Source of the DNA: a virus
IMG/VR virus record: IMGVR_UViG_3300017735_000012
Location: 1 to 52,056 of that record
DNA length: 52,056 bases
Strand: one strand, 5' to 3'
A program made the position numbers and the translations under genes. Positions 34,230 through 38,329 of the stretch are shown piece after piece. Below the pieces are notes generated by a model, which was not told where the DNA came from, searched no databases, and worked only from the letters and a program-made list of their open reading frames with translations. Position 1 is the stretch's first letter; every line of letters begins with the position of its first letter.

Positions 34230-35132
34230 ATGTCATTTGAAAATATGAAACGCAATCGCGATCAAATCTCTAAACTCGTTCAAGCTGCCGAATCAGTCGG
34301 CGGTGGTGAAAAGAAAAACTATGATGATGATCGAGTTTGGAAACCAACTGTAGATAAAGCGGGAAATGGATATGCAGTCTTACGATTCCTTCCAGCAAAA
34401 GAAGGTGAAGATCTACCATGGGTACGATACTGGGACCATGGCTTCAAAGGTCCTACAGGTCAATGGTATATCGAAAACAGCCTTACTTCTATTGGTCAAC
34501 CTGACCCTGTTGGCGAACTCAACTCAAGACTGTGGAATTCTGGGGTTGAAGCCGATAAAGAAAAAGCACGATCACAAAAGCGACGTCTGCATTATGTAGT
34601 AAACGCTCTTGTTGTGCAAGATCCATCTGCACCGCATAACGAAGGTCGTGTAGTTCTATATAAATTTGGTAAGAAAATCTTTGATAAGATTATGGATGTT
34701 ATGCAACCTCAATTTGCAGACGAACAGCCAGTAAATCCTTTTGATTTCTGGGAAGGTGCTGACTTTAAATTGAAGATTCGTCAAGTTGAAGGTTATCGTA
34801 ACTATGACAAATCAGAATTTGCAAGTCCTTCTGCTATGTCTGATGATGAAGCACGTCTTGAAGGTGTGTATAATCAACTGCATTCTCTTTCAGAGTTTAC
34901 TGAACCAAAAAATTACAAATCATATGATGAGCTAAAAGCTAAGCTATCACGTGTTCTTGGAGAAGATGCAGGATTTGGTTCACCTTTGATGGCAGAAGAG
35001 CGCATGATGAATACACCTGTTATGCAACCTGAAATCCCAGTCGCAGAACCAGTTACAGCAGAACAAGTAACTAATACTGATGATATGGATGATACGATGT
35101 GTTACTTTGCTAAATTAGCAAACGACGACTAA
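34230..35132 (+). CDS. gp32: gp32, single-stranded DNA-binding protein
   Basis: A 300-residue protein (T4 gp32 has 301). The basic N-terminus (MSFENMKRNRDQISKLVQA) is the cooperativity domain; the OB core is visible in GYAVLRFLPAKEGEDLPWVR, LHYVVNALVVQDPSAPHNEG and FKLKIRQVEGYRNYD; the C-terminus is acidic (TNTDDMDDTMCYFAKLANDD). The Cys residues that bind zinc in T4 gp32 are missing: the matching stretch reads WYIENSLTSIGQPDPVGELN. It coats and protects ssDNA during replication and recombination. The stop overlaps that of the convergent tape-measure-like gene. Confidence 0.9.
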   Translation: MSFENMKRNRDQISKLVQAAESVGGGEKKNYDDDRVWKPTVDKAGNGYAVLRFLPAKEGEDLPWVRYWDHGFKGPTGQWYIENSLTSIGQPDPVGELNSRLWNSGVEADKEKARSQKRRLHYVVNALVVQDPSAPHNEGRVVLYKFGKKIFDKIMDVMQPQFADEQPVNPFDFWEGADFKLKIRQVEGYRNYDKSEFASPSAMSDDEARLEGVYNQLHSLSEFTEPKNYKSYDELKAKLSRVLGEDAGFGSPLMAEERMMNTPVMQPEIPVAEPVTAEQVTNTDDMDDTMCYFAKLANDD

Positions 35133-36754
35133 GGGCTTAAAAACATATTGTCTGTTGTATCAACAGACGGTCCAAAGCTTGTAACTAAACCTTGACTTGT
35201 TGACGCATCGACACTTGTATTTGTCGGTGCGTTGACTATTTGGGTTCCAGCAGCTTGAGCTCCCATTGCATGGTATGCCGCGGCATCAGACATTGCTGCA
35301 CCAGATTGAGGAGTCGCACGACTTACTGTAGATCGACTAGACGGAGTAGATGATACAAAATCTGGTACACCTGGTGAAGATGTTCCTAAACTTTGTGCTG
35401 GTGCTGCAGTACCTTCTCCGTTTAAAGCATCATTTACTATCTCAGGAAACGCATCAACATTTTGGCCAAGTAAGTATTGTGCTAAGCCTTTAGCAATCAT
35501 ATCACCAAAGAAGTAACCTCCCATACCACCGAGTGCACCTAATAGTGGAGACATTACAACTGCAGCAGGACCTGTCAATCCACCAAGTGCCAAACCAGCT
35601 ATACCACCTAAAGTACTACCACCTAAACCACCTAATATACCAGACATACCAGCAACTTTATCGGTTACAGAACCAGGACTTGTTAGAAGCTGGAAGAGAT
35701 CTAATGCTGCAAATGCTTGTGCTATACCAGGAACACGCAATAGGTTTTTTAATTTAGGAAACTTTTTGCCTATTTCAGTAACATCTGATGCCTTTACCAT
35801 TTTACCTTTATCATTATGAAATCTACCAGTTTTTTTATTAAATGTTACTTTACTTCCATCTTTTAGTTTTCCTTGAGAGCTTGCTGGACCTTTCGGATCT
35901 TTAGTAAGAGCATTTACATCTGTTTTATTTTTACCTAGCATAGCCATTATGCCCGCTTTTGCCGCTGTAAATGGCAACATAAGACCACGCAATGCTAAGG
36001 AGATTGCTTTACCAGGAGCGAATAATGTAAATAATCCTGCCATTGCAATAGCTACACTATCAATCTCTGCGAGAAACCCGTCAAAGTCACCTTGCAATAA
36101 TGCATCGATACCATCAAGTGCACTACCTACAGTAGTTGTAATACTTGTTAATATATCTCCTATACTTGGTAATTGTATATCAAACATTTTAAAGAATTTA
36201 GTAGATAGAACGCCAAAGCTATCTCCAATTTTATTCATCTTTTCTATATTATCATCAGTAAGTACAGCACCAAGAACTGCACCAATAGCAGCAAACTTTG
36301 CGCCAAATATTAATCCGAGACCACCAATTGATAATGATCTCTCGACTACATCTCGCATATCTTTGCTTACACCGTCTACATTTTCAAATACAAAATCAGC
36401 GATTTCATCGGCTAACATAGTAATAATTAAACCTGGAATACCGCGCTTTAATAATGCACTACCAATACCAGCTAATGAGCCCATCATACCAGCGCCCGTA
36501 AGTCCACCTAAAAACGGTAAAGCAAATCCTTTTGACTCTCCACCTCGAGCTGTTGATACGTTATCTTTTCTTTGTGCTTCTTGTGCTTGGTTGCGACCTT
36601 CAATATCAGCTTCAAGAGATTCTGATTCTGCTTCTCTCAACTCTTGAAAGAATTTGTCAAAGCGACGATCAAGTCGTTTTAACACCCGAGTTTGCGCCTC
36701 GTTGCCAGCTTGTTGATCTTCTAAAGATTTATTAATATCAGCTAAAGTTGCCAT
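35129..36754 (-). CDS. Tape-measure/baseplate hub protein (gp29-like position)
   Basis: A 541-residue protein. The N-terminus is helical (ADINKSLEDQQAGNEAQTRV), then come hydrophobic glycine-rich blocks (FLGGLTGAGMMGSLAGIGSA, GLGLIFGAKFAAIGAVLGAV, LGGLGGSTLGGIAGLALGGL) and a Ser/Thr/Pro-rich end. Such a profile is usual for phage tail tape-measure proteins, and the position after gp26 and gp51-like genes matches T4 gp29. It would set tail length and be ejected with DNA. The start has GAGG 9 nt upstream. I infer the gp29 role from shape and order, not from a sequence match. Confidence 0.65.
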   Translation of the reverse strand: MATLADINKSLEDQQAGNEAQTRVLKRLDRRFDKFFQELREAESESLEADIEGRNQAQEAQRKDNVSTARGGESKGFALPFLGGLTGAGMMGSLAGIGSALLKRGIPGLIITMLADEIADFVFENVDGVSKDMRDVVERSLSIGGLGLIFGAKFAAIGAVLGAVLTDDNIEKMNKIGDSFGVLSTKFFKMFDIQLPSIGDILTSITTTVGSALDGIDALLQGDFDGFLAEIDSVAIAMAGLFTLFAPGKAISLALRGLMLPFTAAKAGIMAMLGKNKTDVNALTKDPKGPASSQGKLKDGSKVTFNKKTGRFHNDKGKMVKASDVTEIGKKFPKLKNLLRVPGIAQAFAALDLFQLLTSPGSVTDKVAGMSGILGGLGGSTLGGIAGLALGGLTGPAAVVMSPLLGALGGMGGYFFGDMIAKGLAQYLLGQNVDAFPEIVNDALNGEGTAAPAQSLGTSSPGVPDFVSSTPSSRSTVSRATPQSGAAMSDAAAYHAMGAQAAGTQIVNAPTNTSVDASTSQGLVTSFGPSVDTTDNMFLSP

Positions 36755-36755
36755 A

Positions 36756-36941
36756 TTATCCTCGTTGTTGCTGAGCTTGTAATTCTTTTTCTTTCAATTC
36801 GTCGAGTAGCATAGTAATATAAATTTCCCTCTCCCACGGAATCATAGTGTCAAGATCATATAACGAATAATGGAAATTCTGCAATAACTGGTAGTTTACT
36901 CTATAAAAGTTCTCAAGACTATCGTGTGAGAGGTTTATTAA
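36756..36941 (-). CDS. gp51-like hub assembly protein, made by -1 frameshift?
   Basis: A 61-codon minus-strand frame from TTA 36941-36939 to TAA 36758-36756. It reads LINLSHDSLENFYRVNYQLL, QNFHYSLYDLDTMIPWEREI, YITMLLDELKEKELQAQQQ, a pattern known to me from small gp51-type baseplate hub assembly proteins of marine T4-like phages (YYRxNFxLxxxxxYS...MIPWERxIY). There is no ATG, GTG or TTG before the conserved part. The frame is -1 relative to gp26 and begins right after the eight-T run at its end, so it is most simply a frameshift extension of gp26. Unusual non-ATG initiation is the alternative. Confidence 0.65.
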   Translation of the reverse strand, partial: LINLSHDSLENFYRVNYQLLQNFHYSLYDLDTMIPWEREIYITMLLDELKEKELQAQQQRG

Positions 36942-37651
36942 AAAAAATCATCAAGTCCTTTCAATGTACGTTTGTTAACTGCTTCACATGATTTACATTT
37001 GAATTCTATATCTTGAGTTACTGTTGGCATAGCCTCAACCCAAGTTGTAATAGCTTCAAACTGCGAAGTAGTTAATGAATCTAAAAACCTTTGTACTTCT
37101 TCAATCGGTTCATCGCTAATTTTAATAGCTTCTTCTTCAGTATAAACTGTATCAATGCATGCAATAATAAGATCCATCAATACGTCTGTCCTTGATTTAT
37201 CATCATCAAAGAATGTGCCACGATTCATAAAGAAAGAATACGTAGGATGCCTCAGTTTTATTGAGATCTCATCAGTGATTTTAACAGTGTTCTTATCTTC
37301 AGTTTGTAGAACCTCGATTTTATCAAGATTTACTGTTACTTCATTTGATTCTTCGCATTCTTGGCAAGCAATCATAATTTTTGCTGCTTCACCAACAGAC
37401 TTAGATCTAATTTTAGTAAAAATATAATCTACGTCATACGTTGTTAACTTATTTAATTCATAATCACCTATTACACATGTGTCAATAGTATTCATAATAG
37501 AATTTACAATTTCTTTTTTATTCTGTGATTCGTATGCTAACATCAATACTTTTTGTTCTTTAACTAAGAATGGTCTGTATTTAACTTGATTGTTTGTTGA
37601 TGGAATAACTAAATCATATTGTGGATTGTCATTCAAACGTGGTAGTGCCAT
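36938..37651 (-). CDS. gp26: gp26-like baseplate hub protein/chaperone
   Basis: A 237-residue protein of the T4 baseplate family (T4 gp26 is 208). It opens MALPRLNDNPQYDLVIPSTN, has VKYRPFLVKEQKVLMLAYES, the Cys pair IACQECEESNEV and the second pair FKCKSCEAVNKRT, which may bind zinc, and ends KGLDDFF on TAA. T4 gp26 is needed for hub assembly but is not a clear virion part, as expected of a chaperone. The last coding bases hold a slippery T run (36941-36947). GGAG precedes the start. Confidence 0.85.
   Translation of the reverse strand: MALPRLNDNPQYDLVIPSTNNQVKYRPFLVKEQKVLMLAYESQNKKEIVNSIMNTIDTCVIGDYELNKLTTYDVDYIFTKIRSKSVGEAAKIMIACQECEESNEVTVNLDKIEVLQTEDKNTVKITDEISIKLRHPTYSFFMNRGTFFDDDKSRTDVLMDLIIACIDTVYTEEEAIKISDEPIEEVQRFLDSLTTSQFEAITTWVEAMPTVTQDIEFKCKSCEAVNKRTLKGLDDFF
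36941..36947 (-). other. Slippery heptamer T TTT TTT at the gp26 stop
   Basis: In the gp26 frame the end reads GAT TTT TTT TAA. A -1 slip on T TTT TTT puts the ribosome in the gp51-like frame (TTA ATA AAC...). The heptamer has the X XXY YYZ form and lies immediately before the stop codon. Confidence 0.65.
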
Positions 37652-37660
37652 TTATTTCTC

Positions 37661-38329
37661 CTATAAACCCAAAGATCCCAACCCGGCTGAAGCTGAAATC
37701 CATCCTTGGCCACTTGATGTATTTTGCCAATTAGTATAAGCTATCGTAACTGATACTTGTACTAATCCATCAAGTTCATTATTTAATTCGATTGTTGATA
37801 CATTAATTGGAAATGCATCAATAAGTTCTACTGAATATACACTTCCTCCGCCTAATCCTAGATTTACTCGAATAGGTCCAAGATTTGCACCTGCACCTAT
37901 TAACGGTTTTCTTAGTTGATGTATCTTAATGCTACGTGCATAATCTTTTTTGTAGTTTGCTTCACCAGGTGTTTCACTAATTGTTATAGCACGCCATTCA
38001 TCAAAATACTTTACAATTCCATAATCATTTAAACAATAAAAGGTAAGAGTTACATCATCAACCGCATAGCCATATGCTACTCTTTGGTTTTCAGCGCCTA
38101 TAGCTCTGTCGTGTGTTAATACTCTTTTACCTGGTAACTCTGCTGAAGCACAGATAATATTCATATCTGCTCCACCTAATAGATTTGATAGTTGTGTAAG
38201 TACACCAACTAGACCACCAAGTTGTGGTTTACCACCAAGATTTGATGGTAGCTGGACCAAAAACTGATTACTGCGGGCAAAGCCCATTTTTAATGAAGCT
38301 GCTGACTTTAGCTGGTCGATTGATGTCAT
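37661..38329 (-). CDS. gp54-like tail-tube/baseplate protein
   Basis: A 222-residue protein. FARSNQFLVQLPS, NIICASAELPGKRVLTHDRA, VAYGYAVDDVTLTFYCLNDY and VSVTIAYTNWQNTSSGQG follow the layout of T4 tube-type proteins (gp19 fold). The N-terminal helix (SIDQLKSAASLKMG) and position between baseplate genes favour gp54, the tube initiator, over gp19 itself. It forms the first ring of the tail tube on the baseplate. AGGAG lies upstream, and the start overlaps the stop of the preceding gene (ATGA). Confidence 0.6.
   Translation of the reverse strand: MTSIDQLKSAASLKMGFARSNQFLVQLPSNLGGKPQLGGLVGVLTQLSNLLGGADMNIICASAELPGKRVLTHDRAIGAENQRVAYGYAVDDVTLTFYCLNDYGIVKYFDEWRAITISETPGEANYKKDYARSIKIHQLRKPLIGAGANLGPIRVNLGLGGGSVYSVELIDAFPINVSTIELNNELDGLVQVSVTIAYTNWQNTSSGQGWISASAGLGSLGL

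Follow-up and report, generated by a model that had tools for sequence, protein, structure and literature searches.

A conserved slippery T run argues for probable -1 ribosomal frameshifting that joins gp26 and gp51 into a putative long tail assembly chaperone

The window, which is the whole stretch of 52,056 nucleotides analysed here and comes from a marine T4-like phage, encodes on its minus strand a gp26 protein of 237 aa (36938-37651), the putative short tail assembly chaperone and the product of normal decoding. It matches PF12322 (T4_baseplate, E 4.7e-55) and phrog_150 (E 5.9e-57). The 3' end of the gene reads GGA CTT GAT GAT TTT TTT TAA, and its last seven coding bases constitute an in-frame X_XXY_YYZ heptamer, T_TTT_TTT (36941-36947, minus strand), which belongs to a row of eight T's and is directly followed by the TAA of gp26 (36940-36938). 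The gp51 tail is encoded in the -1 frame (36756-36941, minus strand) and comprises 61 aa after the Phe-Phe pair plus the stop codon. It matches phrog_634, annotated as 'baseplate hub assembly catalyst' (gp51), with an E-value of 6.6e-21, and also the final 46 columns of phrog_150 (E 7e-7), a model that is longer than gp26. Two TGA codons (36953-36948) close the -1 frame just ahead of the heptamer, so that its open part starts at the heptamer and runs to the TAA at 36758-36756. The earliest ATG, GTG or TTG in this frame is a TTG at 36884, which lies within the conserved gp51 domain. The original prediction had described the GAT TTT TTT TAA ending, a gp51-like sequence starting at the T run in the -1 frame and the lack of a start codon before its conserved part, and all three were confirmed. 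A -1 shift on the heptamer is predicted to produce a gp26-gp51 fusion of 298 aa, ...KGLDDFF-LINLSHDSLENFYRVNYQ...

A tail tube family protein is encoded upstream of gp26 (37661-38329, minus strand; phrog_45 tail tube, E 9.9e-27), and a 541-aa protein directly after gp51 (35129-36754, minus strand) probably represents the tape measure, on which the chaperones would likely act. The order of tail tube, gp26, gp51 and long gene is found in the window and in annotated relatives, and in HTVC008M the gene in the corresponding neighbourhood is annotated as a putative tail tape measure. The classical layout of tail tube, chaperone and tape measure is plausible for the window, with the tape measure assigned by position and weak similarity only (phrog_794, E 0.054); the earlier claim that the next gene resembles a tape measure is plausible, but its sequence match is weak. 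The neighbour of gp26 in KVP40 is annotated as a duplicated gp19, and the window gene at 37661-38329 might encode a second protein of the tail tube. In several relatives, an additional gene of about 110-140 aa separates the gp51 tail from the putative tape measure gene (L353:3340-3672, L005:4411-4740 and L355:3331-3750).

Runs of seven T's are not rare in the DNA of the window (25 on the minus strand, overlapping ones counted), so the T run taken alone is little proof. Relatives were collected by five IMG/VR scans with frameshift-type gp26 proteins or profiles, together with annotated phages. The counted loci (n=331) are those with both domains on one strand, and the slip site played no part in the search queries, which were gp26 protein patterns. 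When the junctions were compared, a check of the kind proposed by the original prediction, the gp51 domain was found in the -1 frame at 331 of 331 loci, and T_TTT_TTN ending at most a few codons away from the stop of gp26 at 330 of them, the lone exception being Vibrio phage YC of the Ackermannviridae. The heptamer is retained in 111 of 112 representatives when relatives above 70% identity are dropped, and in 38 of 39 when the limit is set at 50%. At all 330 slippery loci the -1 frame reads through the slip site without a stop, with a median open length of 65 codons versus 7 in the +1 frame. Junctions of the isolates Atu_ph07, HTVC008M, IC12 and phiN3, read by eye, are in agreement.

The codon usage around the Phe pair was found to be highly constrained. 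The preceding codon (Asp, Ser, Asn and others) invariably ends in T and the first Phe codon is invariably TTT, for which codon usage of the same genes gives a probability near 1e-39, an overstated value that treats related representatives as independent. At other Phe-Phe pairs in these genes, the slippery form is present in 8 of 96. The fixed position of the heptamer and the -1 relation across hundreds of relatives are, judged from these sequences, far beyond chance. We regard them as strong comparative evidence for programmed -1 ribosomal frameshifting, which supports the original prediction that a probable -1 shift joins gp26 and the gp51-like frame.

A Shine-Dalgarno-like element, AAAGGA (36956-36961, minus strand), lies 8 nt before the heptamer in the window and is a candidate frameshift stimulator on the basis of its enrichment and synonymous bias. 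Such an element is found about 8-11 nt 5' of the heptamer in 93% of 111 representatives versus 7-46% at control positions, and much of this enrichment is accounted for by conserved Lys/Glu/Arg-Gly residues. A bias is also displayed among synonymous codons at the element, where Glu is encoded by GAG in 71% versus 25% elsewhere and Gly by GGA or GGG in 66% versus 36% elsewhere. Every -1 frame ATG lies too far from the element for initiation there, and the element resembles the upstream stimulators of bacterial -1 frameshifts, e.g. that of dnaX. Downstream of the heptamer, no consensus pseudoknot or hairpin was found by alifold in either junction class (energy 0.0). Folding of single downstream sequences slightly exceeds that of controls (mean z -1.3 versus -0.5), a difference that we do not count as evidence.

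The conservation and start codon data bear on other explanations of the junction. Separate gp51 genes are annotated in public records, as would be expected if gp51 were a separate small protein whose translation follows termination of gp26, by reinitiation or translational coupling. TAATG or TGATG is present at the junction in KVP40, Yut3 and XG4, many cyanophages have an ATG few bases past the stop, and stop/start overlaps of this type yield a -1 relation by themselves. However, ATG, GTG and TTG are all absent before the domain in the window, and before or just inside it in 72 of the 112 representatives; ordinary start codons are likewise lacking in 30 of the 39 representatives that remain below 50% identity. 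The original prediction had named relatives with their own gp51 ATG and ribosome site as evidence against frameshifting; an ATG does follow the gp26 stop in some relatives, but a ribosome-binding match accompanies just 1 of the 26 existing -1 frame ATGs, versus 94 of 111 for gp26's own start. Since most representatives are startless and the ATGs almost never have such a match, reinitiation cannot account for the junctions in general, although some lineages may use it. Moreover, T_TTT_TTN is not required for reinitiation and yet is retained at junctions that do have an ATG, and reinitiation leaves the synonymous bias upstream without a reason. Separate translation of gp51 is quite unlikely as the explanation. 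For the window itself, separate initiation was rejected, with no -1 frame start before the domain and the sole Shine-Dalgarno-like element too far from later starts.

The long form could also arise by transcriptional slippage, as the window has eight T's in a row and a run of this length is long enough for polymerase slippage. Nevertheless, about half of the representatives possess T_TTT_TTC, with a run of only six T's, which is too short for efficient transcriptional slippage, and the conservation in codon phase (X_XXY_YYZ) together with the upstream element fits the ribosome. We give transcriptional slippage only a very slight chance. Homopolymers are error prone, and the frame break might be a sequencing error within one continuous gp26-gp51 gene, a concern already raised with the original prediction. 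The identical break was found in a contig of 99% identity, in relatives of 66% identity and in isolate genomes, and the heptamers end in C, A or G besides T. The same junction in the near-identical contig and in many distant relatives argues against error, which we reject given the conservation of the break in independent genomes.

The long form of the chaperone is organized differently in the T4-type phages. T4 gp51 (249 aa) also belongs to PF12322 (E 3.9e-52), and its similarity to phrog_150 extends from end to end. In the alignment, the N-terminal ~203 residues of T4-type gp51 lie on gp26 up to the position of the Phe pair and are followed by the gp51 tail, which supports the original suggestion that T4-like gp26 and gp51 may be the same chaperone pair. 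T4 thus shares with the window a gp26 family domain and a gp51 tail the same as that of the fusion, but its long form is a gene of its own on the other strand and the slip site is absent. A long gene plus a short gp26 without T_TTT_TTN was found in T4, RB49, Acinetobacter phage Melin, Klebsiella phages KP15 and KP185, Providencia phage PSTRCR_127 and Cronobacter phage VP8; the slip site is missing in these seven phages, that is, wherever the long gene is separate. In Klebsiella phage KP15 the long gp51 and the short gp26 are arranged in tandem on one strand (L350:2001-3295), whereas they are divergent in T4.

In the phylogenetic tree, T4-type gp26 and gp51 are placed apart from all frameshift-type sequences (98/97), and within the T4-type they form separate branches except for an unsure KP15 gp26. 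The branching supports one duplication within the T4-type clade, as read from a tree that is unrooted, has long branches and gives no direction of change. The logic of lambda G/GT would be realized by frameshift in the window phage and by gene duplication in T4. A different junction was found in the Ackermannviridae (Vibrio K361, L017; Vibrio YC, L018; Kuttervirus, L019 and L356), where the -1 relation is kept with no X_XXY_YYZ heptamer. These all share T_TTC, then a codon starting with A, then TAA (as in ATT TTC ATT TAA), and two of them have TAATG.

The fold model of gp26 is confident (pLDDT 91.8) and matches gp26-family models of other phages. Among solved structures, the highest Foldseek probabilities were obtained for the HK97 gp13 chaperone 2ob9 (0.60; TM on target 0.51) and for 3fgx (0.41; TM 0.38), also described as a chaperone, both with E above 1. 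The structure search with the T4-type gp51 model gave no meaningful solved match, and nothing was found in a profile search of PDB sequences. Because the matches to chaperone folds do not reach a significant E-value, the putative chaperone role is argued less from fold than from gene order, architecture and the literature.

Taken together, gp26 and the gp51 tail very probably constitute, from comparison of their sequences, a chaperone pair of the lambda G/GT kind with a minority fusion made by -1 frameshift. We infer the occurrence and rate of slippage, the contribution of the upstream element and the function as chaperones. Most ribosomes would end at the gp26 TAA and yield the short chaperone of 237 aa. 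When TTT TTT occupies their P and A sites, a minority would slip back one base on T_TTT_TTT and continue to the 298-aa fusion. Base pairing between 16S rRNA and the AAAGGA located 8 nt upstream probably assists, and the adjoining stop codon might cause an additional pause. If lambda G/GT is a guide, the tape measure protein would be coated by the gp26 part, and subunits of the tail tube or hub would be recruited by the gp51 tail. The locus is like lambda gpG/gpGT (Levin 1993; Xu 2004) in having two frames between tail tube and, here, the probable tape measure, the second in -1, with a slippery heptamer close to where the first ends and, as predicted here, a minority fusion. It differs from lambda in protein family and heptamer, and the frameshift has been measured in lambda, while here it is predicted from sequence.

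The original prediction was not aware of a description for the gp26/gp51 family. Vladimirov, Gautam and Davidson (Virology 2022, 566:9-15) nevertheless report an identification of T4-like tail assembly chaperones, and citing works credit that paper with the short/long gene pair and poly-T slip sites. In these works, some T4-like phages are stated to have one short and one fused long chaperone gene (PMC10885494), and poly-T slip signals to be known in T4-like chaperone genes (PMC12846349). The chaperones of Vladimirov 2022, as so credited, belong to the same gene family as the window locus and have short and long forms and poly-T signals in common with it, though the title stresses a mechanism other than frameshifting. 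For chaperone genes of Vandenendeviridae and Andersonviridae (phage Adele), PMC12846349 further proposes a -1 frameshift at a poly-T motif that is conserved ahead of the tape measure gene. This is similar, but the motif is GTTTTT and the phage families are others. Since citing papers credit Vladimirov 2022, we treat the principle as published and the window locus as a new member. What may extend beyond that paper is the breadth of the arrangement, the exception found in the Ackermannviridae and the synonymous evidence for the upstream element. No description of the cyanophage case was found in the open literature. Sullivan et al. 2010 (PMC3037559) note that the gp51 of cyanophages and of marine vibriophage is without the first ~200 residues of T4 gp51; a frameshift would account for this short gp51.

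The findings bear on annotation as well as on chaperone biology. The long form is misannotated in public records, with the gp51 part called a separate gene in cyanophages, KVP40 and pelagiphage HTVC008M, and the gp51 tail is without annotation in Aeromonas phage P19 (L021:3238-3411) and Cronobacter phage LPCS28 (L022:3205-3381). The roles of gp26 and gp51, formerly catalogued as hub chaperones with an ill-defined function, can now be tested in terms of a chaperone pair for the tape measure, and the window locus belongs to related phages that make the same two products by frameshift or by two genes. We see roughly even chances that, outside the T4-type clade, the T_TTT_TTN frameshift with an internal Shine-Dalgarno stimulator is the standard route to the long chaperone, that the T4-type clade has one duplication and fusion in its place and no slip site, and that the Ackermannviridae use a third route. 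If this is true, these phages would be a natural experiment on the gain and loss of programmed frameshifting.
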